Shown here: one piece after another, positions 1 to 40,350 of the stretch
Position numbering within the stretch: the first letter of the stretch is position 1
Layout of the letters: the number at the start of each line of letters is the position of its first letter
Assembly (NCBI GenBank): GCA_937871505.1
Contig: CALMPF010000068.1
Location: forward strand, 1-64,000
Length of the DNA: 64,000 bases
Source of the DNA: an uncultured Planctomycetia bacterium
GTDB taxonomy: Bacteria > Planctomycetota > Phycisphaerae > Phycisphaerales > SM1A02
Direction of reading: 5' to 3'
Translations under genes and position numbers: made by a program
Notes under the pieces: model-generated
Seen by the model: only the letters and a program-made list of their open reading frames with translations
Told to the model about the DNA's origin: nothing
The model's database searches: none

Positions 1-63
1 TTCTCCTTGCAGAACATCCGCTTCCGACCGCCTCGCGACGGACCCAAGGGGCGCTTCAGTGCT
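1..63. repeat. Right half of a dispersed palindromic (MITE-like) repeat, cut by the window edge
   Basis: These bases match the right end of the element at 35689-35871 almost exactly (about three differences) and, in reverse complement, the left end of the element at 29737-29831. The outer terminus lies at 45-63 and reads as the 19-bp terminal inverted repeat with two changes. Only the part up to the window edge is visible, so the left end and full length are unknown. It lies inside the open 3' end of the minus-strand membrane-protein gene. Confidence 0.8.
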
Positions 64-5302: not shown

Positions 5303-5485
5303 GAAGATGAACCCAGGGAGTGCGGTGCGGACGCGCCGGAACGGTATCGCCGCGGCGACATCCGAACGACCACTCGAGCGCGAGAGCGGAGCGAACTCCG
5401 GCCTCCGACCCCGGAGCGAGACGCAGCGGCGCCTCCGCTCTGCGGCGCGCGGCACTCCGATCAGCGGCATCGCTCGCTCCCTCAG

Positions 5486-5571
5486 TGGCCCCGGTGGGTC
5501 TCGAACCCACACGTCCGTTTCCGAACTGCGGATTTTAAGTCCGCTGCGTCTGCCAGTTTCGCCACGGGGCC
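5486..5571 (-). tRNA. tRNA-Leu (anticodon UAA)
   Basis: On the minus strand the acceptor stem GGCCCCG (5565-5571) pairs with CGGGGCC (5487-5493), with A as discriminator at 5486. The anticodon stem GCGGA/TCCGC encloses the loop CTTAAAA, giving anticodon TAA at 5535-5537. A long variable arm, typical of leucine tRNA, precedes the T-arm GTGGGTTCGAGACCCAC. The total is 86 nt and CCA is not encoded. Confidence 0.95.
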
Positions 5572-5926
5572 GCGGCGCTCTCGCGCTCCATTGTGGCCGA
5601 GTCTGGGCCGTCCGGCGCCCGGGAGCGGCGTTCTGATGCGCCGAAGCGCTCGTCGGGGGGAGCACCGGTCTTGGACGATGGACGCTCCACGCCGGCGCCG
5701 AGCGCTCGGCGGATCCCGGCGACGGAAGCCGGCAGGCGGCGCATCCCGTGGCTCACGCGCATCCTCCGCCTTCGAGCAGTTCGCAGGGCGCGGCACCGTT
5801 CGCCTTACGCTTCGGATGCGCCAATCCGTTCCGACGCCTGGCCCCGTGCTCTGGCCCAGCCTTTCGGCCCAGCTCTTCGGGTTCGCCGTCCACTTGGCTC
5901 GTCGCACCGCTCAACTCAACGCCGCC
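5572..5926. other. Intergenic region, no gene recognised
   Basis: 355 bp between the tRNA-Leu 5' end and the SDR gene. It should hold the tRNA promoter (minus) and the promoter of the downstream plus-strand gene, but I see no convincing -35/-10 pair, terminator hairpin or small gene. Confidence 0.5.
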
Positions 5927-26175: not shown

Positions 26176-26672
26176 CGATCGGGCATCTCGCCGGGGAGCC
26201 GGCAGATCGCCCGTCGGAGCCGACCGACACCGGTTGTCCACAGCGCTGGCTCGGGACGCCGAGCTGTGATGAGAAGGGTGAGAGTAATTCTCATCACCCT
26301 CATAGAGCCCGCGGCGGGTGGTGCACAACCTGTGAACGCGATCATAAAGACCTCTCTCTCATAAGGACTTGCATCACAGGCATAGGTGTGCAGAACCTTC
26401 CTTGAACCTGTCGGATTGCTGTCGCTGGCAGTCGGCTGCTGTCGACAGGACCTTGCCACCCTGGAGTTCTCGTCAAGTTGTCCACCACCAGAAGCAACCA
26501 CGCGGGGCGCTGCCCGACGGCAGACGACAGCAGTTGACAGGCCCAACCCTCGGGGCCCAAACCCCGGAAGCCAGACCCCGGAAGCCAGACCCCGGAAGCC
26601 AGACCCCGGAAGCCAGACCCCGGAAGCCAGCGCTCGGAACCCAGTCTTCATCACCCAGCGCCCGAGACCCGT
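26176..26672. other. Candidate replication origin (oriC) next to dnaA
   Basis: 497 bp without a gene between the ends of mutM and dnaA. It holds a DnaA-box-like TTGTCCACA at 26234-26242 (one change from TTATCCACA), a weaker TTGTCCACC at 26478-26486, and a patch at 26260-26400 poorer in GC than its surroundings. There is also an inverted repeat TGATGAGAA/TTCTCATCA at 26267-26296 and a 14-bp tandem repeat array. Gene orientation switches from mainly minus on the left to mainly plus on the right near here, as expected around an origin. All of this is suggestive; two good boxes are few for an oriC. Confidence 0.45.
26561..26630. repeat. Five perfect tandem copies of a 14-bp unit (accccggaagccag)
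   Basis: Five identical uninterrupted copies, flanked on the right by a degenerate sixth (26631-26644) and on the left by a degenerate partial copy. It lies 43-112 bp beyond the dnaA stop codon. The reading frame across it on the minus strand is only a translated repeat (Leu-Ala-Ser-Gly-Val-Trp type) and not a gene. It could be an iteron-like element of the origin or a neutral minisatellite. Confidence 0.9.
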
Positions 26673-29570: not shown

Positions 29571-29645
29571 GGCCCCTTCGTCTAGCCTGGTCCAGGACAC
29601 CAGGTTCTCATCCTGGTAACAGGGGTTCGAATCCCCTAGGGGTCA
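29571..29645 (+). tRNA. tRNA-Glu (anticodon CUC)
   Basis: 75 nt. Acceptor stem GGCCCCT (29571-29577) pairs with AGGGGTC (29638-29644), including one G-U pair, and discriminator A is at 29645. The anticodon stem CCAGG/CCTGG encloses TTCTCAT, giving anticodon CTC at 29607-29609. The T-arm reads AGGGGTTCGAATCCCCT. CCA is not encoded. Confidence 0.95.
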
Positions 29646-29736: not shown

Positions 29737-29831
29737 AGCACTCCAGCGCCCCTTGGGTCCGTCGCGAGGCGGTCGGAAGCGGAACGCCGCTTCCGGACGC
29801 CGCAGCAGGAGACAAGGGGCGCTGGAGTGCT
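29737..29831. mobile_element. MITE-like palindromic element, compact 95-bp copy
   Basis: Perfect 19-bp terminal inverted repeats AGCACTCCAGCGCCCCTTG (29737-29755) and its complement (29813-29831). The centre is itself a palindrome (GGAAGCGG/CCGCTTCC at 29775-29794). The left ~47 bp match, inverted, the right end of the copy at 35689-35871; the right ~50 bp match its left end exactly. It lacks the ~90-bp interior of that copy. No coding capacity, so it would move only with a transposase supplied elsewhere. No target duplication is evident. Confidence 0.85.
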
Positions 29832-30119
29832 ACGAGCCTGCGACGCAAGCTCCTGGCGGCGCCTCCACCGCGGGATGAAGGGCCGGGGCGCGCGATGTGC
29901 GCTGTGCGGACGCGACGTCCCGAACTCCCGCACCGCACTCGTCGGACCCCTGCGTCGAGTTGCGATTCTCGGAGGCGACGGTACCTTGCCTGCGTCCTGA
30001 GGCGTCCCTCTCGGGACGAGCTTCGCCACGCGTCGCACCTCCGCAGCCACGTGTGAATGCGCCGACTCCCCCCCGCATCCGAGATCCGGCGTGCGGGCCT
30101 TTGCGGACCCTCTCTGCCG

Positions 30120-31106
30120 ATGCCATCCGCCCGCCACTTCGCCACCGCCCTGATCGCCTTGGCGGGAGCTGCGCTCGCACCGGCCTCTGCGGCCGAGAGC
30201 ATCCAGCTCTCCAACGGCGACGTCCTGACGGTCGACATCGTCGACGTCGGGGAGGACTTCGTCACCTTCACCCATGCGGTCTTCGGCACGGTGACCGTGC
30301 CGCGGGCGACCGTGACGTTTCTCTCGCGCCCGGCGGCCGAAGCGGCCCGCGCGGCGCAGCTCGAGACCGCTGTTCCGCCGCCTGCTCCGCCCGCGGCAGA
30401 CGCCCCGGCGGCGGCGCCGCCGCCCGCGGCCGAGATCCCGGCGCCCCCGCCGCGCGAGTGGAAGTTCCGCTTCACGCTCGCCGGTTCGGGCACCGCGGGC
30501 AACACGCAGGACATCTCGGTGACGACGCGGCTGACCGCGCTGCGCGAGGTCCCGACGATGCGGACCTTTCTCGAAGGGACGTACTTCTTCGGCAGCAGCG
30601 GCGGCGACAAGAGCGACAACAAGTTCTCGATCGCGGGCCGCAACGACTTCCTGTTCCCCGAGAAGCGCTACTTCTTCTTCGTCGACAGCCGCTTCGACTA
30701 CGACGAGTTCAACTCCTGGCTGTACCGGCTGACCGGGCACGTCGGCGTCGGCTACAAGCTCCTCGTCGACGAGCCGTTCACGCTCAGCGCGCTGGGCGGC
30801 ATCGGCTTCAACAAGGAGTGGAAGAGCGTCAACGACGACATCCAGCTCGAAGGTCTGCTCGGCGCCGAGGGCAAGTGGACGATCGCGCCGGACAATGCGA
30901 TCGTCTTCAGCAGCATCTGGTATCCGCAGCTCACGGACTGGCCGGAGTACCGCTGGGTGAACACCGCGGGCTGGAACTGGAAGTTCTCGAACGACTCGCC
31001 GCTGAGCCTCACGGCCGGAATCCGCCACGAGTACGACTCTGACGTCGATCCCGGACAGGACCACAATGACTTCCGCTTCTTCGCGGGAGTCGACTACGAG
31101 TTCTGA
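30120..31106 (+). CDS. DUF481 outer-membrane-like beta-barrel protein
   Basis: 328 residues from ATG at 30120. A signal peptide (FATALIALAGAALAPASAAE) leads to a small beta domain (IQLSNGDVLTVDIVDVGEDF with VFGTVTVPRATVTFL). A Pro/Ala-rich linker follows, then about 230 residues of alternating beta strands ending in FRFFAGVDYEF. A terminal Phe after alternating residues is the usual signal for outer-membrane barrel assembly. This matches the DUF481 family of predicted outer-membrane proteins, whose function is not established. It is the first of three closely spaced plus-strand genes (72 bp before mscL). Confidence 0.8.
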   Translation: MPSARHFATALIALAGAALAPASAAESIQLSNGDVLTVDIVDVGEDFVTFTHAVFGTVTVPRATVTFLSRPAAEAARAAQLETAVPPPAPPAADAPAAAPPPAAEIPAPPPREWKFRFTLAGSGTAGNTQDISVTTRLTALREVPTMRTFLEGTYFFGSSGGDKSDNKFSIAGRNDFLFPEKRYFFFVDSRFDYDEFNSWLYRLTGHVGVGYKLLVDEPFTLSALGGIGFNKEWKSVNDDIQLEGLLGAEGKWTIAPDNAIVFSSIWYPQLTDWPEYRWVNTAGWNWKFSNDSPLSLTAGIRHEYDSDVDPGQDHNDFRFFAGVDYEF

Positions 31107-31178
31107 GTCGGTCCGCCCGTGCGCCGCGCAGCGGCGACGGCGGCGGTCCGCACACCGCAGCAGCCAGGAGACGACGAC

Positions 31179-31613
31179 ATGGGCATCCTCAAGGAGTTCC
31201 GCGACTTCGCCATCCGCGGCAACGTCATCGACATGGCCGTCGGCATCATCATCGGCGGCGCCTTCGGGACGATCGTCACGTCGCTGGTGAACGATGTCCT
31301 CAAGCCGCCGCTGGACTACGTCGTCGCCCGGGGCCAGCCGGATCCCGCGGGCATGAAGGCGAAGGTCGGAGACGTGATCGTCGGCGAGGGCGCCGAGGCG
31401 AAGGTCGCATCGTTCTTCATCGACTACGGCAAGTTCATGAACGCCGTGATCAGCTTCGTGATCGTCGCGTTCGCGGTCTTCCTCCTCGTCAAGGCGATCA
31501 ACACCGCGCGGAAGTACGCCGAGCGCGAGCAGGCCGCCGCGCCGCCGGCGGAGCCTGCCGCGGACGTCAAGCTGCTGACGGAGATCCGCGATCTTCTCGC
31601 TTCGCGAAAGTGA
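31179..31613 (+). CDS. mscL: Large-conductance mechanosensitive channel
   Basis: 144 residues from ATG at 31179, with AGGAG at 31166-31170. The family signature is at the N terminus (GILKEFRDFAIRGNVIDMAVG then IIIGGAFGTIVTSLVNDVLK), giving TM1. TM2 is FMNAVISFVIVAFAVFLLVKA, and the C-terminal helix LLTEIRDLLASRK forms the cytoplasmic bundle. The homopentamer opens under membrane tension and releases solutes on hypo-osmotic shock. Length is normal. Its stop codon overlaps the GTG start of the sigma factor gene by 4 bp, an unusual coupling for mscL. Confidence 0.97.
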   Translation: MGILKEFRDFAIRGNVIDMAVGIIIGGAFGTIVTSLVNDVLKPPLDYVVARGQPDPAGMKAKVGDVIVGEGAEAKVASFFIDYGKFMNAVISFVIVAFAVFLLVKAINTARKYAEREQAAAPPAEPAADVKLLTEIRDLLASRK

Positions 31614-32185
31614 CGCGGAGCTCCGACGAAGCGACCCGCCTGCTTGGAGAGATCGCCGCGGGCGATGCGGACGCCGCGCGGCGCCTGCTTCCGATCGTCT
31701 ACGACCAGCTCCGCGCGCTCGCTGCGGGGCTCTTCCGCGGGCAGCCCGCGGACCACACCCTCCAGCCGACGATTCTCGTCCACGAGGCCTTTCTTCGTCT
31801 CGTCGACCAATCGAGCGGCGCCTTTCGCGATCGGGCGCACTTCATCGCGGTCGCGGCCACCGCGATGCGGCAGATCCTGACGGACCACGCCCGCCGCGTC
31901 CGGGCGGCGAAGCGCGGCGGCGGCTGGAACCGCGTCGACGTCGACCCGCCGCAGGAGCTTGGCCCGGCCCTGGTCGACCTGGTGGCCCTTGACGACGCGC
32001 TCGCGGAGCTTGCCGCCCTCGACGAGCGCAAGCACCGCATCGTCGAGCTTCGCTACTTCGGCGGGCTCACCGTCGAAGAGGTGGCCGATCTGCTCGGGCT
32101 CTCCAAGCGGACGATCGAGAGCGACTGGCGTGCAGCCCGGGCGTGGCTGGGCGCTCGGCTCGGCGACTCGCGGAGGACGGAGTGA
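31610..32185 (+). CDS. ECF-type RNA polymerase sigma factor
   Basis: 191 residues from GTG at 31610, overlapping the mscL stop (GTGA). Region 2 is at about residues 17-90 (LLPIVYDQLRALAAGLFRGQ, then LVHEAFLRLVDQSSGAFRDR and AATAMRQILTDHARRVRAAK). Region 4 is at about 125-180 (LAALDERKHRIVELRYFGGL then TVEEVADLLGLSKRTIESDW). This is the ECF group abundant in planctomycetes and often linked to Ser/Thr protein kinases. No anti-sigma factor follows. The kinase-WD40 gene 4.5 kb downstream on the same strand is a possible functional partner, but that is inference. Confidence 0.93.
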   Translation: MTRSSDEATRLLGEIAAGDADAARRLLPIVYDQLRALAAGLFRGQPADHTLQPTILVHEAFLRLVDQSSGAFRDRAHFIAVAATAMRQILTDHARRVRAAKRGGGWNRVDVDPPQELGPALVDLVALDDALAELAALDERKHRIVELRYFGGLTVEEVADLLGLSKRTIESDWRAARAWLGARLGDSRRTE

Positions 32186-32363
32186 GTCGAGGCGGGCAGC
32201 GCCGGGGAGGGCATCCGGGGCGCTTGAACAGGCCGCAGAGTACGATCCCGGAGCCCGCCCTCGGAAAAAAGTCAAGTTGCCGCGCGCAGCGCCCGCTTGG
32301 GAGTCCCTCTTCGGCGACGGCCCCATCTCGGGGCCACCGCTTCTCCCCGGAGGGATACGGGCG

Positions 32364-33212
32364 ATGAAGAGCGTCGTCGAGGCGGGCGTCCTCGAGTCAA
32401 CTTCTCCCCGGTCCGCTCCGGGGTCCTGCACACGCGGCGAGCGACCGCCCGTGCGACCGGTCCCGATCCGCCATGTGTCAGATCCAAGCGCCGTGAAGTC
32501 TGTCGACCAGAGCGCCGATCGCTTTCCGAACGCGACGGAATCGGTGCGCGAACTGCTTGCCGTTGGAAGCGAGCCCGATGCGGCGGCCCTGGTGATGTCG
32601 CTCTACGGCGGTGCGCTGGCCATCTACTTCCTCGGCAGCAGCTTCCGCCGCAGCCTCCCCTCGGACGAGTCGGCGGAGTCGGTCGTGAACGACTTCTTCG
32701 CGGAGAAGGTCGGTCGGCCCGGGTTCCTCAGTTCGTGGCTCGGACGAGGCTGCAAGTTCAGGCACTGGCTGCTGGTCGCGTTCGCGAACCACCTTCGTCA
32801 CCGCATCCGTCGGGAGCGATCGGAGCAGCGACGGCGCGAGATCGTCGCCGGGCGCGATGCGGCGTGCCCGGGGCGCATGCCGCGCGACGTCGTCCGCGAT
32901 CGCTTCGACGCCGAGTTCGCCCGCAGCGCCGCCCGCGAAGTGATGCGGGTCGGACAGGAGTCCTGCGAGCGCGCGGGGCGCGGCGATGACTGGCGCACGT
33001 TCACGGAGCACGTCATCGACGGCCGGACCTATGGCGAACTCGCCGATCGCGACGGCCTGACGCAGCGGCAGGTCGCGAACCGGGTGCGCTTCGCCGGAAG
33101 CAGGCTCCAGCTTGCGGTCCGCCGCGTGCTCTCGGTGACCGGAACCCCGGAAGCGGAGCTCTCTCGGGAGGTCGACCGGTGGCTGGAGGCGCTTGAGCGA
33201 TGTCGGACCTGA
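32364..33212 (+). CDS. Second, divergent sigma-70-like (ECF-type) factor
   Basis: 282 residues from ATG at 32364, with GGAGGG upstream. Later GTG starts (for example just before KSVDQSADRFPN) are possible. Region 2 resembles a planctomycete sigma subgroup: DESAESVVNDFFAEKVGRPG, LSSWLGRGCKFRHWLLVAFA and NHLRHRIRRERSEQRRREIV. Region 4-like sequence is TYGELADRDGLTQRQVANRV, followed by a recognition helix. The middle contains the FDAEFARSAAREVMRVGQES segment seen in these proteins between the two regions. It overlaps the next gene by 13 bp. Family assignment is confident at the level of sigma-like; the promoters it reads are unknown. Confidence 0.7.
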   Translation: MKSVVEAGVLESTSPRSAPGSCTRGERPPVRPVPIRHVSDPSAVKSVDQSADRFPNATESVRELLAVGSEPDAAALVMSLYGGALAIYFLGSSFRRSLPSDESAESVVNDFFAEKVGRPGFLSSWLGRGCKFRHWLLVAFANHLRHRIRRERSEQRRREIVAGRDAACPGRMPRDVVRDRFDAEFARSAAREVMRVGQESCERAGRGDDWRTFTEHVIDGRTYGELADRDGLTQRQVANRVRFAGSRLQLAVRRVLSVTGTPEAELSREVDRWLEALERCRT

Positions 33213-33718
33213 CTGGACCACCCCACGAATCCGCGAAGTTCGAGCGCCCCGATCAGGGCGGCGCGACCTTCGACGACGAGCGGTCGATCGCGCTGCTCCG
33301 CGTCGCTGCGCGCGGACGTCCGCTGGAGTCGATCGCGGTGCGCCTGGCAGCTCCGGATGCCGGAGCATGGATCGTCGCGCAGGTCGATCGGGCTGCGCTG
33401 ACCGTGGGCGGCTCGGCCGCAGCGCTGCTCGAAGGAGCGATGGCCCTCGATGCGCTCCGAGCGATCCGCAGCAGCGCCTCCCGGAGGGCGCAGGAGAGCC
33501 TCAACGAGCGCGATCGACTTGCGGCGCTGATCGTCTACACGGTGGCGACAGCGGCCGCGATGGTCCACCACCGCGTGCTCCCGAGCAGAGCCCCGCGGGA
33601 GGAGTGGGACGAGCGCCTGGTGGCGCTCTCCGCCGTCGCTCCGCCGCCATGGGGAGCCCTCTTCCGAAACGCAGCGGACACCGAGACGGACTCGGATGGG
33701 ACCGCGACCGCAGGCTGA
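33200..33718 (+). CDS. Small helical protein coupled to the sigma-like gene, unknown function
   Basis: 172 residues, starting at ATG 33200, 13 bp inside the end of the sigma-like gene. It is Ala/Arg/Leu-rich and predicted mostly helical; residues 95-125 (ALRAIRSSASRRAQES then LAALIVYTVATAAAMVHH) are moderately hydrophobic but not a convincing membrane helix. No known domain is recognised. The overlap with a sigma gene suggests a regulatory partner such as an anti-sigma factor, but no zinc-binding HxxxCxxC motif is present. A hairpin follows the stop codon. Confidence 0.6.
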   Translation: MSDLTGPPHESAKFERPDQGGATFDDERSIALLRVAARGRPLESIAVRLAAPDAGAWIVAQVDRAALTVGGSAAALLEGAMALDALRAIRSSASRRAQESLNERDRLAALIVYTVATAAAMVHHRVLPSRAPREEWDERLVALSAVAPPPWGALFRNAADTETDSDGTATAG

Positions 33719-33723
33719 CCTCT

Positions 33724-33738
33724 GCGGCGGGCCGCCGC
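33724..33738 (+). terminator. Short GC hairpin after the sigma-like operon
   Basis: GCGGC-GGGCC-GCCGC, 5 bases beyond the stop codon at 33718. Five-base-pair stem, loop of five, no T-run. Plausible as a weak terminator only. Confidence 0.35.
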
Positions 33739-34303
33739 GCCAGCCGCATCGCGCGGGGAGCGTCGATCGGCCTCGATCGTCGGGGGGCCTCGCTCGCCAG
33801 CATCCGTCGCCCGTCGAGGAACGTCCCTCGTCAGGAGTCTCCGCTGATCCGCGGATCTCACGCTCGCTCCGGCGGACGGCCACTTCAGCGAGCCGCGAGC
33901 GCAGCGCCCCTCGCCGTGCATCGAGGCTGCGTCGGAGATCTGAGCGGCAGTGCTGGCGATGGAGCGCCAGGAGTCAGCGTCACGGAAGGCGCGCGGCCAC
34001 AGTGAGGGGCTTCCGGCACCTCAGGACCCCTGTGGGGTTCTCGATGGTCGCATGGCCCTGGAGCGGGTGTCGACTTTGCCGCGACGCAGACTCCTGGCAG
34101 ATGCTCTGAGTCTGTACGGGGGGCCCGCGGCCTCCGACAACGACTGACTCTCGACTCTCATGGCAAGATCGTCCCCCGCCCTTGACGTTCCCCGCGGACG
34201 CGGTACGTTGACGCGCTGAAGCAACGGGCGTCCTTGCCGCGAAGGCTGCGAGGGCGTCCACCCAGGTCGCTCCCTCGATGCTCTCGAAGAAGGGTCCAGT
34301 TCC
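33739..34303. other. 565-bp intergenic region with the promoter of the PEP-CTERM-like gene
   Basis: No gene with convincing codon use on either strand. The right end carries the promoter candidate at 34182-34209 and the leader of the secreted protein gene. A 13-bp sequence GACGCAGACTCCT at 34083-34095 recurs inverted at 35074-35086, flanking that gene, and a variant lies beside the MITE-like copy at 29840-29857. Confidence 0.5.
34182..34209 (+). promoter_or_regulatory. Sigma-70-like promoter of the PEP-CTERM-like gene
   Basis: TTGACG (34182-34187), spacer of 16, then TACGTT (34204-34209), about 95 bp upstream of the start codon. The -35 box is near consensus and the -10 is weak. This is the clearest such pair in the window. 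Confidence 0.5.
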
Positions 34304-35023
34304 ATGAAGAACTTCATCATCTCGAGCCTCGGCTCTCTCGTCGTCGCGGGTGCCGCGTCGGCCGCCTTCACCGGCGTCGCCTTGAACGAGTACGTCGTCG
34401 GCGACAAGTGCGTCGCCGACATCTACATGACGTTCGACGGCACGAACGGCCTCGCCGACGTGCTCCTGAACATCTACAACGTCCAGTTCTCGCTTACGAC
34501 CCACGACGGCAACAACGCTATCCCGTTGCTGATTCACAGCAACCTCGTCCCGGGTCCGAGCTGGTCGCCCCAGTTCGTCACCCCCGGCATGGAGAACATG
34601 GACACCTTCGTCACCATCGGTGGCGCGGCTGGCTTCAACAACAGCACCCAGGCCGATCCGAACTGGGGCGGCGCCGGCTTCAACCAGGCCGGCATCCCGG
34701 CCCTCGCCGGCTGGTTCAACAGCAACCCGCCGAACCTCCAGGGCCAGTCCTCGTTCGTCGACATCTCCAACCTGTTCGGCAACAAGACCTATCAAGGCGC
34801 CGCGACCTTCGTGATGCGGCTTGTCGCCCTTGCCAGCGACCTCGCCGCGAACCCTGTCAGCATCAGCTTCTCGGGATCGCTAACCTACAACCAGGGCCTC
34901 GGCACCGCGCCGATCCAGCCGAACTTCTCGTTCCAGAACAACCTCTGGGCGATCCCGGCTCCTGGCGCTCTCACGCTCCTCGCCCTCGCCGGCCTCGCTG
35001 CCGGCCGCCGTCGTCGCGCGTGA
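34304..35023 (+). CDS. Secreted protein with PEP-CTERM-like sorting tail
   Basis: 239 residues. A signal peptide (MKNFIISSLGSLVVAGAASA) is followed by about 190 residues of beta-rich, Asn/Gly-rich sequence with few charges. The C terminus is PAPGALTLLALAGLAAGRRRRA, which I read as a sorting signal: a PAPGA motif, a hydrophobic helix and an arginine cluster. In PEP-CTERM systems exosortase cleaves this tail and the protein goes to the envelope or extracellular matrix. No exosortase is in the window. Base composition is less GC-rich and the residues more polar than in neighbouring genes, as is common for surface proteins. AAGAAGGG upstream is the likely ribosome binding site. Confidence 0.85.
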   Translation: MKNFIISSLGSLVVAGAASAAFTGVALNEYVVGDKCVADIYMTFDGTNGLADVLLNIYNVQFSLTTHDGNNAIPLLIHSNLVPGPSWSPQFVTPGMENMDTFVTIGGAAGFNNSTQADPNWGGAGFNQAGIPALAGWFNSNPPNLQGQSSFVDISNLFGNKTYQGAATFVMRLVALASDLAANPVSISFSGSLTYNQGLGTAPIQPNFSFQNNLWAIPAPGALTLLALAGLAAGRRRRA

Positions 35024-35220
35024 TCGCTCGCCGACTCGGTACTCCTGCCGAACGTCAGCGAGTCCGCTGACCGAGGAGTCTGCGTCACGGAGCGCCTTCA
35101 GCCTCCGAGATGTCGTGAGCCCGGAGGTTCGTCATCTTCGGCGCCGACGCGGCCCGCACGCTCCGCCAGAGTCTTCACGAATTCCGGGTTTCCAAAGACA
35201 CAATCGGGTGGCTGGCGCGA

Positions 35221-35490
35221 ATGGTCTGGCCTGGGAAGCGTCTACAGGCCGTAGAGCCCGATCAGGTGCTGCTGCCGCCGTCGCTGCGGGCGATGGCGGC
35301 CGGCAACGCACCTGGCCGTCGGACGATCTGCCGCTTCCGGGAGCGTCATCTGAAGGACTTCGAGAACGCGTTCGTCCAGCTCGCGCAGCTCGCGCGTGAG
35401 GCGGAACTGGTGAGTATGGGGACGATCGCGGTCGACGGCACGAAGATCCGTGCCGACGCGAGCAAGCGGAAGGCGAAGCGCTCAAGGCCA
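35221..35490 (+). pseudogene. Decayed IS1182-family transposase with internal deletion
   Basis: About 90 codons survive. The N-terminal signature VEPDQVLLPPSLR of IS1182 transposases is joined directly to GRRTICRFRERHLKDFENAF and LVSMGTIAVDGTKIRADASK. Between them roughly 80-100 residues expected in this family are missing, and the catalytic C-terminal half after ASKRKAKR is lost. The sequence then continues as unrelated Arg/Pro-rich translation. It cannot encode an active enzyme. It lies about 200 bp from a MITE-like copy, but nothing shows that this transposase moved that element. Confidence 0.8.
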
Positions 35491-35688
35491 TCGCGGCGCC
35501 CGCTGCGGCGTCGCTTGACGACCCGATCGGGCCGAGAGTGGGACGCACGCCGTGCAGGTCGAGCGCACACCTCGCGCAGGATGAGCGAGCGAGGTCCGCC
35601 CGGACGCTCCATGGAGACTTGTCCCGCTGGAGAGGTGCATGCCGAACGCCCGACCTGGCGCCGGGCGGCTCCGCGACGCAGACTCTCG

Positions 35689-35871
35689 AGCACTCCAGCG
35701 CCCCTTGTCTCCTGCTGCGGCGTCCGGAAGCGGCGTTCTGCTGCGTCGAAGCTCGCAGCTGGTGCTTGATGGCCCGCAGCGGGGCCACCGGCGCCCCATC
35801 TGCTTCGCTTCTCCTTGCAGAACATCCGCTTCCGATCGCCTCGCGACGGACCCAAGGGGCGCTGGAGCGCT
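35689..35871. mobile_element. MITE-like palindromic element, 183-bp copy
   Basis: Left terminus AGCACTCCAGCGCCCCTTG at 35689-35707; right terminus, with one change, at 35853-35871. The first 50 bp equal the right end of the 95-bp copy in reverse; the last ~60 bp match the element at the window start. An interior of about 90 bp, absent from the short copy, separates the ends. There is no coding capacity. Its right edge overlaps the stop codon of the minus-strand globin-like gene (35870-35872). Confidence 0.85.
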
Positions 35872-36415
35872 AGCCAGTCGATCGACCGAACCAACTGCGG
35901 GGCGCGCCTGTTCCGGAGCCTCGGGGCGCGGTGCGCGCGGCGGGATCCGCCTCGAGCATCGTCGCCATCGCCACGTCGAGGGCGCGGCGGAGCTCTTCAG
36001 CGAACATCGGCGTCCATGCCTCGCCGAGCGACTCGGCGACGGCGTCCTGAAACACCGCGGCGAGCAGGGCGCACTCGGCGCGCCGGATCTCGGCGGCGGT
36101 GATCCGGAGTCCGAGCTCGCGCAGCAGGTCATGGACCGGTTCATGGGCGCTCACGCGATCGAAGATCAGTTCGAGCGTCGCGCGGACGCTCCGCCGGAGC
36201 ACCGCTGCGCGCTCCCGTCCCTGCTCGCCGCGCAGCATGGCGGCGATGGCGGGAACCAGCGCCGCGGCGCGGTCGAGGACGCGGTCGATCACGGAGTCGA
36301 GGACCGGTCGTACGAGGGCGTGGCTCTCGCCGAGCCTGGCGATGACGAGCTCGTCGGGGGGGATCACGTGAAGGCCGTCGACCGGCGCGAGCAGTGGATG
36401 GCGGGTGATCCGCAT
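35870..36415 (-). CDS. Globin-like protein
   Basis: 181 residues from ATG at 36415. The segment from LVRPVLDSVIDRVLDRAAAL to WTPMFAEELRRALDVAMATM follows the pattern of single-domain bacterial globins: helix A, then IPAIAAMLRGEQGRERAAVL, a helix with the proximal-His region weakly kept (RVSAHEPVHDLLRELGLRIT), then AECALLAAVFQDAVAESLGE. Haem binding cannot be confirmed. The start is uncertain because the frame stays open upstream with no clear ribosome binding site. The stop codon is formed at the edge of the MITE-like element, so the native C terminus may have been altered. Divergent from the kinase gene. Confidence 0.55.
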   Translation of the reverse strand: MRITRHPLLAPVDGLHVIPPDELVIARLGESHALVRPVLDSVIDRVLDRAAALVPAIAAMLRGEQGRERAAVLRRSVRATLELIFDRVSAHEPVHDLLRELGLRITAAEIRRAECALLAAVFQDAVAESLGEAWTPMFAEELRRALDVAMATMLEADPAARTAPRGSGTGAPRSWFGRSTG

Positions 36416-36714: not shown

Positions 36715-39700
36715 GTGCGCGTCGGATCCGTACCATCGACCGTGCAGGACGTTCCGATCCCATCCGGCGCATCCCGCGGGGGCGAACGGCGACGGACCCC
36801 GGGCGGCGGGGCGACCCCTGCCTCGGGTGGCGAGCCTCAGCCAGCCTCCAAGACGCAGATCGGCGCGGAGGATCCGGCGCGGCATCGCTTCGACCGCCTG
36901 ATGAAGGGGTTCGAGGAGGCGATCGGACTCGACCTTCGCGCTCGCGCGGAGCTCCTTCAGAACTGTCGCGCGAACGACCCCGCGCTCGCCGACGAGCTCG
37001 CCGCCATGCTTGCCGCGGATGAAGGCCCGGGACTTGGGGTCGGCACCGGCGCCGCCCGGCTGGCCGAGGCGGTCGGCGGCGATCGAGAGGGGCGCCACGC
37101 AAGCCCCGATCCAGGCTTCGCGCCGTCGGGCGCTCCGGAAGGAGCTGCCGGCCCGGGTGTGCGACCGCGCACGATCGGCCGCAGCGCGGCATCGGGGCGC
37201 GAGCGGCTTCCCCGAGAGCCGATCCCGCTCCTCGCCGGCGAGTACCGGCTGATCCGGCTCCTTGGCGAGGGCGGCATGGGCACGGTCTACGAAGCGGAGC
37301 AGGCGATCCCGCGGCGGCGCGTCGCGGTGAAGGTGATCCGCTCGAGCTTCGCGTCGCGGCGGATGCTCCGCCGCTTCGCCCACGAGGCCCATGTCCTCGG
37401 GCGTCTCCAGCACCCGGGCATCGCCCAGATTTTCGAGGCCGGTGCCGGCGATGCCGATCGGCCCGATCAGGCCTTCTTCGTGATGGAGTACGTCGACGGT
37501 GTCTCGCTTGTCGAGTATGCGCGGGAGCGCTCGCTCGACCAGCGCGAACGCCTCGGCCTGGTCGCGGCGGTCGGCGACGCGGTGGCGCACGCCCATCAGC
37601 GCGGGGTGATTCACCGCGATCTCAAGCCTGCGAACATCCTCGTCGATGCGGGAGGACAGCCGAAAGTCCTCGACTTCGGAGTCGCGCGCGTCGTCGAAGG
37701 GGATGCCGACGTCTCGACGCAGCTCACGTCGATCGGACAGCTCGTCGGCACGCTGCCCTACATGAGCCCTGAACAGGTCTCCGGCGACCCCGACGAGGTC
37801 GACGTTCGCTGCGATGTCTACGCGCTCGGAGTGATCCTGTACGAGCTGCTCGCCGGGAGGCTGCCGCATGATCTCGCCCGGAAGTCGATCCCCGAGTCGG
37901 CCCGCATCATCCGCGAGGTCGATCCGCCGAGACTCGGCTCCATTCGCCGCGAGTGCCGCGGAGACATCGAGACCATCGTCCACAAGGCGCTCGACAAGGA
38001 GAAGCAGCGTCGCTACCAGTCCGCGCAGGAGCTCGTCGCGGACATCCGTCGCTGGATGGACGGCGAGCCGATCCAGGCGCGGCAGCACTCGGCGTACTAC
38101 GTCCTGCGCAAGGCCATCCGCCGGCATCGCGGGCCGGTGGCCGCCGCCGCACTCCTGCTCGTCGGCCTCGCCTCGTTCTCCCTCTACGCCCTGGGTCAGT
38201 CGCGGCTCAACGCGCGCCTGGCGAGGATCGCGTCAGAGGAGCTCAGCGCGAGCAACGTCGAGCGCGGGCGGCTCTTCGCGCGGACGGGGAAGCTCCGGGC
38301 CGCAGAGGCGCTGATCTGGCCCGAACTGCTGCGTACGGCGACCGCGGAGAGCGCGTATCACGCGCTCTGGGAGATGTACGAGCGCCAGGCGTGCGTCGCG
38401 ACCTGGCGGCCGTTCGACCTGCCGATCCGGGCGATCGCGGCGATGGGCCGGGGCGAAGCGGTCGCCGTGGGAGAGCGCGGCCCGCTCGCGCGGATCCGGC
38501 TCGCCGACGGAGCCGTCCTCAGCCGATCGGAGCAGATGTTCGCAGGCGAGGTCGCGGGCGCGGTGGTGCTCGACGATGGAACGTTGATCGTCGCCGATGG
38601 CGAAGGGTTGCTCTCGACCTTCGATGCCTCCGACCTTGCTGCCGAGGGCTCGGTTCGGGCGCATCGCGGCGGCGTTCGCGGGATCGCGGTCACCGGACCC
38701 TCGGAGTTCGTCTCGGTCGGGCCGGACGGAGCGATGCGGCGCTGGTCGAGTGCGCTGGATCCGCTCGGCGAGGTCGCCATCGGCGCCGGGGCGACGGCGG
38801 TGGCCTTCGATCCGACGCGGCGGCTCGTGGCGGTCGCCCTGGCCGGCGGTCTCATCCGGCTCCTCAAGCCAGACGGCGAGGTTGTCGCGACGCTCGCCGG
38901 TCACGCAGCCGGGGTCCCTGCGCTGGCGTTCTCGCCGGATGGATCGACCCTGGCCTCGGGTTCGAGCGATCGGACCATTCGCTTCTGGTCGGTTCCCGAC
39001 GGAGCGTCGCGCGCGAGCGTCCGTCGGCCCAATGGAACGACGCGCGGCCTGGCCTTCGACGGCGACGAGCGCCTGTTCAGCACGGGGTGGTGGCGCTTGG
39101 AGGTCTGGAATGCGGCGGAGCACGAAGTCGTCCGGACGATCGCGAGCGCCGAGGGACAGCTTGCGTTCGAGCATGTCGGCGAGGGGGTCGTCGTCACCGG
39201 TCACGCAGACGGGACGCTCCGCGTCTGGGAGCTCGCCGGACACGGCGCACGGCGCGAGGTTCACTCGGGGAGCGGTCCAGGCACGTCGATCTTCACGCCG
39301 GACGGCCGCGGCATCGTGCACGGAACCTCGGCGGGCCTGGTCGAGCTGGTCGACTCGGCAACCCTCGAACCGATTCGCCGCTTTCCGGGCCTCGCCGCCC
39401 GCGTGGCGACGCTCGCGCTCTCGCCCGATGGACGGATGCTCGCAGGCGTGGCGCGCGACGGTTCGCTCATCCTCTGGGACTTCGAGAATGGCGCCGAGCT
39501 CGGGCGCAGCGCCGGAATCAACAGCGCCACCGGCGCCGGTGTCGCGTGGCACCCTGGTTCCGCGCTGCTCGTCGCCTGCGGACGCGACCGGGCGTTTCAC
39601 GTCCTCGCCGCGCCGTCGCTCCAGCGACTGACGACGCTTCCGGCGTCGAACGAGGCGCTGGGCGTCGCGGTGGCCCCGGATGGCGAGTCATTCATCGCCG

Positions 39701-40350
39701 TCAGCCGCGAGGATCGCATCGTCCGCGCCGGCTTCGATGGGGTGGTCCTCGAGAGCGTTGCGGCAGGAGACTCGGGGACGGCCGCGTGGATGCCTGGGAT
39801 CAGCCCCGACGGGACCACGCTCGCGGTCGGTGCGTGGGATCGAACGGTCCGGCTCCTCGACGCGCAGACGCTTCGTCCGCTCGAGACGCTCGTCGGACAC
39901 TCGGCGCTGGTCTCAAGCGTCGCATGGCGCCCCGGTCGCCCGCAGCACCTGCTGACGGTGGGGTGGGATGGGGAGATCCGACTGTGGAATGTCGGCAGCG
40001 GCCAGGCGCTGCTGGCGCTCGATGTCTCCCCGGGCTGGGAGCTGCTCGATGCGGCGTGGAGTCCCGAGGGCGACAGGTTCGTCGTCTCGGATGCGCGCGG
40101 CCTGGTGACGCTCTGGGATCTCCGCGCCGGCGACCGGGCCATCGCCGGCCACGTCCGCGCGACGATGGCCGAGCTTGAACACGGCGCGCTGAGCGGAGTG
40201 GGAGAGCCGCGCTCAGCGGCGATCGATCGGTCGGCGCTCCGCGATCGCCGCGCTGCGCTGGAGGCCTGGGCGGACGCGGTCCTCGCAGGCGAGCGCCCCG
40301 ACCCGCCGCCAGAGCCGGGGCCGGAGCCGGCTGCGATCCGGGAGCGATAG
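36715..40350 (+). CDS. Membrane Ser/Thr protein kinase with C-terminal WD40 repeats
   Basis: 1211 residues from GTG at 36715; an ATG at 36901 is an alternative. After a low-complexity start comes the helical RFDRLMKGFEEAIGLD segment found before many planctomycete kinases. The kinase domain has its Gly loop LLGEGGMGTVYE near residue 182, AVKVIR lysine, catalytic HRDLKPAN near 299 and DFG near 321. One membrane helix (AAAALLLVGLASFSLYAL) is near 478-496. The rest is about twelve WD40-type repeats (VPALAFSPDGSTLASGSSDR, LVSSVAWRPGRPQHLLTVGW), probably a beta-propeller outside the cytoplasm. All catalytic residues are present. It probably senses an envelope or periplasmic ligand. Confidence 0.93.
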   Translation: MRVGSVPSTVQDVPIPSGASRGGERRRTPGGGATPASGGEPQPASKTQIGAEDPARHRFDRLMKGFEEAIGLDLRARAELLQNCRANDPALADELAAMLAADEGPGLGVGTGAARLAEAVGGDREGRHASPDPGFAPSGAPEGAAGPGVRPRTIGRSAASGRERLPREPIPLLAGEYRLIRLLGEGGMGTVYEAEQAIPRRRVAVKVIRSSFASRRMLRRFAHEAHVLGRLQHPGIAQIFEAGAGDADRPDQAFFVMEYVDGVSLVEYARERSLDQRERLGLVAAVGDAVAHAHQRGVIHRDLKPANILVDAGGQPKVLDFGVARVVEGDADVSTQLTSIGQLVGTLPYMSPEQVSGDPDEVDVRCDVYALGVILYELLAGRLPHDLARKSIPESARIIREVDPPRLGSIRRECRGDIETIVHKALDKEKQRRYQSAQELVADIRRWMDGEPIQARQHSAYYVLRKAIRRHRGPVAAAALLLVGLASFSLYALGQSRLNARLARIASEELSASNVERGRLFARTGKLRAAEALIWPELLRTATAESAYHALWEMYERQACVATWRPFDLPIRAIAAMGRGEAVAVGERGPLARIRLADGAVLSRSEQMFAGEVAGAVVLDDGTLIVADGEGLLSTFDASDLAAEGSVRAHRGGVRGIAVTGPSEFVSVGPDGAMRRWSSALDPLGEVAIGAGATAVAFDPTRRLVAVALAGGLIRLLKPDGEVVATLAGHAAGVPALAFSPDGSTLASGSSDRTIRFWSVPDGASRASVRRPNGTTRGLAFDGDERLFSTGWWRLEVWNAAEHEVVRTIASAEGQLAFEHVGEGVVVTGHADGTLRVWELAGHGARREVHSGSGPGTSIFTPDGRGIVHGTSAGLVELVDSATLEPIRRFPGLAARVATLALSPDGRMLAGVARDGSLILWDFENGAELGRSAGINSATGAGVAWHPGSALLVACGRDRAFHVLAAPSLQRLTTLPASNEALGVAVAPDGESFIAVSREDRIVRAGFDGVVLESVAAGDSGTAAWMPGISPDGTTLAVGAWDRTVRLLDAQTLRPLETLVGHSALVSSVAWRPGRPQHLLTVGWDGEIRLWNVGSGQALLALDVSPGWELLDAAWSPEGDRFVVSDARGLVTLWDLRAGDRAIAGHVRATMAELEHGALSGVGEPRSAAIDRSALRDRRAALEAWADAVLAGERPDPPPEPGPEPAAIRER

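Follow-up and report, generated by a model that had tools for sequence, protein, structure and literature searches.

RUP, NEMIS/Correia and Nezha, bacterial MITEs that IS transposases drive, have partner IS families other than IS701. These elements resemble the family described here in being short and non-coding, in carrying terminal inverted repeats (TIRs), in occurring in many copies, and in being foldable and mobilised in trans (PMC3733652). REP/REPIN elements with their RAYT transposases are also palindromic and multi-copy, some with a GTAG flank. In contrast, they are stem-loops of 20-40 bp with a fixed tetranucleotide, compared to 59-205 bp, variable flanking 4-mers and a probable DDE-type partner here; element size and variable 4-mers rule against REP/REPIN membership. 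The published ends of the IS701 family read ---YACT-Y--YR and its target duplication is exactly 4 bp (PMC2266710), and ISTth8 also makes a 4-bp duplication (PMC6352166).

The elements described here resemble the IS701 family (NCBIfam NF033540; Pfam PF13546, DDE_5) in their YACTACARCGC-type ends, in YTAR/CTAG flanks and, at a nested copy, in a 4-bp repeat, and through end-specific GCTCAAG at offset 18 of a longer element that shares their TIR. The end CACTMCAGCG together with YTAR fits the IS701 consensus YACT-Y--YR (PMC2266710). Unlike IS701 elements, they contain no transposase, share only approximately 17 bp with the longer element, and are flanked in their own genome by sequences that are not strictly YTAR. 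They form a family of non-autonomous DNA transposons (MITEs) that an IS701-family transposase very probably mobilises in trans; the same TIR class bounds transposase-bearing IS701 elements in relatives. A literature search found no paper linking MITEs to IS701 and no described IS701-associated MITE family. The impression of novelty from the sequence-only reading stands for the sequence family, as far as the literature searched shows; the kind of element is ordinary, with IS701-type ends and target repeats.

The window, the whole 64,000-nt stretch that was analysed, comprises bases 1-64000 of contig C68 in a draft genome (G000) of 4.23 Mb in 72 contigs. The three copies of a palindromic element reported in the sequence-only reading were all found (Table 1), with inverted 19-bp ends (perfect in the compact copy, one mismatch in the 183-bp copy), two distinct ends (L, CACTCCAGCGCCCCTTGTCTCCTGCTGCGG..; R, CACTCCAGCGCCCCTTGGGTCCGTCGCGAGG..) and opposite orientations of the two complete copies. 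The fragment at 1-63 has the same orientation as the 183-bp copy. It is cut off by the start of contig C68, where the window also starts, so its shortness reflects an assembly break and is not natural. Folded as single-stranded DNA, the compact copy gave -46.7 kcal/mol (z -10.0 compared to shuffles), and the 183-bp copy gave z -5.6. No family match was found for the window copies in Rfam.

Table 1. Copies of the MITE family and their ends in the window, and complete IS701 elements of related genomes
Feature	Location	Strand	Description
MITE copy, R-end fragment	1..63	+	93% identity to 35809-35875 across 67 nt; right-end TIR, 2 mismatches
Possible decayed L-side interior remnant (weak)	5613..5647	+	89% identity to 35718-35752 across 35 nt; TIR not recognisable
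Compact foldback MITE copy, 95 bp	29737..29831	-	R end left, L end right, interior deleted
19-bp TIR, R side, foldback copy	29737..29755	+	exact match to AGCACTCCAGCGCCCCTTG; 4-mer up to first base pair CGAG
19-bp TIR, L side, foldback copy	29813..29831	-	exact match; outward 4-mer GTAG
Full-length MITE copy, 183 bp	35689..35871	+	left end L, right end R; 97-98% identity with copies at other places of the genome
TIR, L side, 183-bp copy	35689..35707	+	flanking 4-mer CGAG
TIR, R side, 183-bp copy	35853..35871	-	1 mismatch; flanking 4-mer CTAG
IS701 element L206	G324, 1,564 bp		CTAG both sides; TIR YACTACARCGC
IS701 element L207	G282		TIR YACTACARCGC, YTAR flanks both sides
IS701 element L208	G365		TIR YACTACARCGC, YTAR flanks both sides

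Elsewhere in the window, a tRNA-Leu gene (5485-5571) adjoins the possible decayed piece, and 91 bp separate a tRNA-Glu gene (29571-29645) from the 95-bp copy downstream of it. Just downstream of the 183-bp copy, 36742-40350 encodes a large protein in which a serine/threonine kinase domain precedes WD40 repeats (Pfam), and a 14-bp unit (CCAGACCCCGGAAG) forms a tandem array at 26543-26640.

When up to 3 mismatches were allowed, the 19-bp end was found 156 times in the genome (82 forward and 74 reverse) compared to twice (1 and 1) for the reversed control. BLAST of the 183-bp copy against the genome gave at least 72 matches at E <= 0.001 (40 of 262 candidates scored), and at least 42 distinct places matched it at 78-100% identity. 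The searches with the end and the full copy thus returned many dispersed copies, bearing out the high genome-wide number predicted from the window; that only the window copies exist is false. The copies were 59-217 bp long, mostly 179-205 bp with clusters at 178-179 and 191-205 bp, and foldback versions of 59, 64 and 91 bp were also present. Their TIRs measured 16-19 bp, and the elements are non-coding and shorter than any transposase gene. Both tips read CACTCCAGCGCCCCTT, with CACTAC in older copies, and past the TIR one end takes the L form (..GTCTCCTGCTGCGGCGTCC) and the other the R form (..GGGTCCGTCGCGAGGCGG). The TIRs, foldbacks and many dispersed copies agree with the designation as a palindromic MITE family.

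A tree of 36 copies resolved two sequence subfamilies with full support. One copy (L018, G000:C18:77098-77286) sits at the junction of both and is apparently chimeric, with an L half of the older and an R half of the younger subfamily, which suggests recombination or gene conversion between copies. Copies nested in or abutting other copies were observed at L007, L008, L009, L016 and L030:1407-1699 (G000:C18). At L014:~780-820 (G000:C2), an 18-bp perfect palindrome, CACTCCAGCGCTGGAGTG, consists of two TIR tips only; it is flanked by TTAG and TTCA and adjoins another TIR. Two copies 4 kb apart (L057:999 and 4996, G000:C26) have near-identical left flanks, as if an insertion-bearing gene had been duplicated. 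On a 6243-bp contig (L050, G000:C37), the MITE copies at both ends have a 19-bp outer flank, GGGGTTTTCAGACAGAACC, in common; the two flanks are inverted relative to each other and may be the end of another repeat. This contig was rejected as a composite or autonomous transposon: it carries housekeeping genes (by ORF reading, trmD, murC and others) and is bounded by two separate MITEs.

At eight contig ends of the same genome, the 17-bp TIR of the MITE was followed by unrelated sequence, that is, by the ends of a longer element: end A (..CTTACTCCCGTTGACAACGCC) at C7, C17, C18 and C57, and end B (..CTTGCGCTCAAGTCCCGAGCC) at C31, C54, C61 and C63. All eight were preceded by CTAG, TTAG or CTAA (YTAR). 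These ends carry CACTACAGCGCCCCTT, and the bounding sequences are CACTACAGCGCCCCTTACTCCCGTTGAC ... and ... GCGCTCAAGTCCCGAGCC. The TIR is therefore common to the MITE and to a presumably autonomous longer element whose interior is absent from the assembly. Four A and four B ends are what four copies would leave if their identical interiors had collapsed and remained unbinned, and the transposase gene is probably missing from the bin for this reason. No match to an IS701 transposase was found in the window's genome at E <= 10; this is not decisive, because the interior of the longer element is missing there. GCTCAAG occurs at offset 18 in all four end-B copies and at the same offset in the transposase-proximal end of seven IS701 elements (L206, L207, L208, L212, L218, L157 and L159, the last listed at offset 21 as counted from 3 bases earlier), strong indirect evidence for an IS701 IS as the missing element. 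No sequence beyond the TIR was shared by the MITE and the longer element in the 50 bases available, and the origin of the MITE as a deletion derivative is thus without support.

The sequence-only reading had called for a transposase with matching ends, and one was found in relatives. Complete IS701 elements in other genomes of the class have the TIR YACTACARCGC inside YTAR/CTAG 4-bp target repeats, and the transposases of the three in Table 1 scored 296-319 bits against NF033540 (cut-off, 150 bits). A pattern search across the class turned up two TAGCACTACAGCGCACC ends separated by 1.57 kb in G324. The IS701 transposase between them gave 319 bits across the whole interval and contains one TGA. 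DDE_5/IS701 with this TIR class was first detected in L182. IS701-family elements of the same order had CTAG, CTAA or TTAG flanks, ends reading TACTACAG or TACGACAACGC, and transposases of 273-443 bits to NF033540. IS701 transposase matches were obtained in six of eight class genomes picked for the TIR (three above the cut-off), and PF13546 in 11 of 251 genomes across the order. The ends therefore match a known IS at the level of the IS701 family only. Two other candidates were rejected: L122 (NC_groundwater_805) as an autonomous element, having one end only and no recognised transposase, and ISAzo13 (PF07592) as the driver, with none in the own genome and a single match, with a different TIR, among 61 genomes.

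A scan of approximately 85,000 species genomes with TARCACTMCAGCGCCCCTT returned eight stretches, six in 'Phycisphaerae bacterium isolate new MAG-51', one in a groundwater planctomycete and one, probably a chance match, in Pseudoduganella. The MAG-51 MITEs (JAEUIU01; L119-L121, L123, L125 and L126) have the TIR and two unlike ends (..CTTCTGCTGCGG and ..TTCGTCGCGAGG) as here, are of similar length (61-191 bp) and include short foldbacks. They differ from the window family in their interior, in having mostly CTAG on both sides, and in CACTAC instead of mainly CACTCC. No IS701 transposase was found in G061, a genome with a homologous MITE. A few decayed copies were present in G019, a member of the family to which G000 belongs. 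One relative there (L082:1490-1600), 86 bp long with CCAG on both sides, follows an ATG in frame and precedes a signal-peptide-like stretch, and from its reading frame may now be the N-terminus of an exported protein. Differently built MITEs on the same TIR were seen in G273, G408 and G280, also members of the class. These matches point to a planctomycete, probably one of the Phycisphaerae, as the source of the window.

Judged from these shared ends, those of the MITE are very probably a substrate of an IS701 transposase. A DDE transposase of this family would recognise the shared end CACTMCAGCGCCCCTT and insert the MITE at short YTAR-like sites with duplication of 4 bp. The longer element would be the IS701 IS that supplies the transposase, its copies lost from the assembly through collapse. 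The foldbacks of 59-91 bp would be interior-deleted copies, and the adjacent copies and one nested copy would reflect insertion next to or into older copies.

Target duplications were the point on which the evidence was divided. When the L030 copy inside an older MITE end was removed together with one 4-bp repeat (CTTG/CTCG), a gap-free 55-bp match of 82% was restored, and tandem copies have exactly 4 bp between their CACTCC ends. A Tc1/IS630-type TA duplication, suggested by TA flanks, was dropped because the tandem spacing and the CTAG repeats of relatives indicate 4 bp. A 4-bp repeat is present at the nested site; among 38 complete copies of the own genome, however, identical left and right 4-mers were found in only three, not above chance (2.1 expected). 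Flanks in this genome are YNNR, often not YTAR. The left -4 base equalled the right +1 base in 27 of 38 copies (17.8 expected; 0 of 2000 shuffles), and in 32 of 36 the base adjacent to the TIR was a purine shared by both ends (GG in 24, AA in 8); these two left-right correlations, each with z of approximately 4, were the only strong ones. Of 76 ends, 53 had complementary outer bases (37.8 expected). At the two middle positions, left-right agreement in the 38 copies did not exceed chance, contrary to what a clean 4-bp duplication would give. Simple decay is no explanation, since young copies (approximately 97% identical) share this outer-base-only pattern.

Two improbable readings would account for the pattern differently. 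In one, the IS701-type reaction runs in a variant form: the element's own outer nucleotides pair up with those of the target (YNNR), and the donor 4-nt flank is kept and sealed on one side; if true, duplications would agree at the outer bases only, and a DDE transposon would leave scars like coupling sequences. The other, equally doubtful, is a recombinase of a different kind that makes no true 4-bp duplication, either joining a YnnR junction of a circular intermediate to a YNNR target, with only the outer bases matched and with the donor supplying one flank and the target the other, as in Tn916-like coupling sequences, or acting as an IS701-type enzyme that keeps donor 4-nt flanks. The excess of matching outer and TIR-adjacent bases, with middle bases at chance, speaks for such an enzyme, as does the observation that all eight A-type copies are of the short length variant (p 0.004, uncorrected), by which the terminal purine type may be heritable. 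Against such an enzyme, no more than 18 of 38 copies agree at both outer bases, a distance test of purine inheritance was not significant, the tree was too poorly resolved to test it, and no candidate enzyme was identified. Moreover, identical YTAR repeats flank seven of 16 MITE pairs of the relatives and the IS701 elements L206, L160, L161 and L174.

It is very unlikely that the elements are selected palindromes with a regulatory or structural host function (terminators, mRNA stabilisers or REP/BIME-like sequences) and not mobile. Both window copies fold back strongly, and by a home-made gene caller, whose calls are crude and suggestive only, convergent genes flank eight of 41 copies, and of 27 gene 3' ends that face a copy, 10 are no more than approximately 12 bp away from it. 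If stop codons make up most of the YTAR sites of a GC-rich genome, closeness of copies to them is to be expected. Against host palindromes, the same ends bound transposase-bearing elements, copies are nested and in tandem and occupy divergent, tandem and convergent gene positions, and most are 179-205 bp with two unlike ends compared to 20-40 bp for REPs (PMC3733652). The nested L030 insertion weakens this reading further, and it is kept solely as a secondary role that the copies might have. That the repeats stem from assembly, binning or a contaminant can be practically dismissed: many copies are at contig ends in a 72-contig draft, and contigs of short-read assemblies typically end at repeats, but copies inside long contigs have dispersed sites with unique flanks unlike one another, contamination is 1%, and a homologous family occurs in an independently deposited MAG.

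With mobilisation by an IS701-family transposase as the preferred reading, the IS701 family would gain a non-autonomous partner present in many copies. Related versions of it occur in at least one further Phycisphaerae genome, and other members of the class carry unrelated MITEs with the same TIR. The MITE family accounts for many of the breaks in this assembly, and the unmatched middle bases of its flanks present a concrete puzzle on how IS701-type elements insert.
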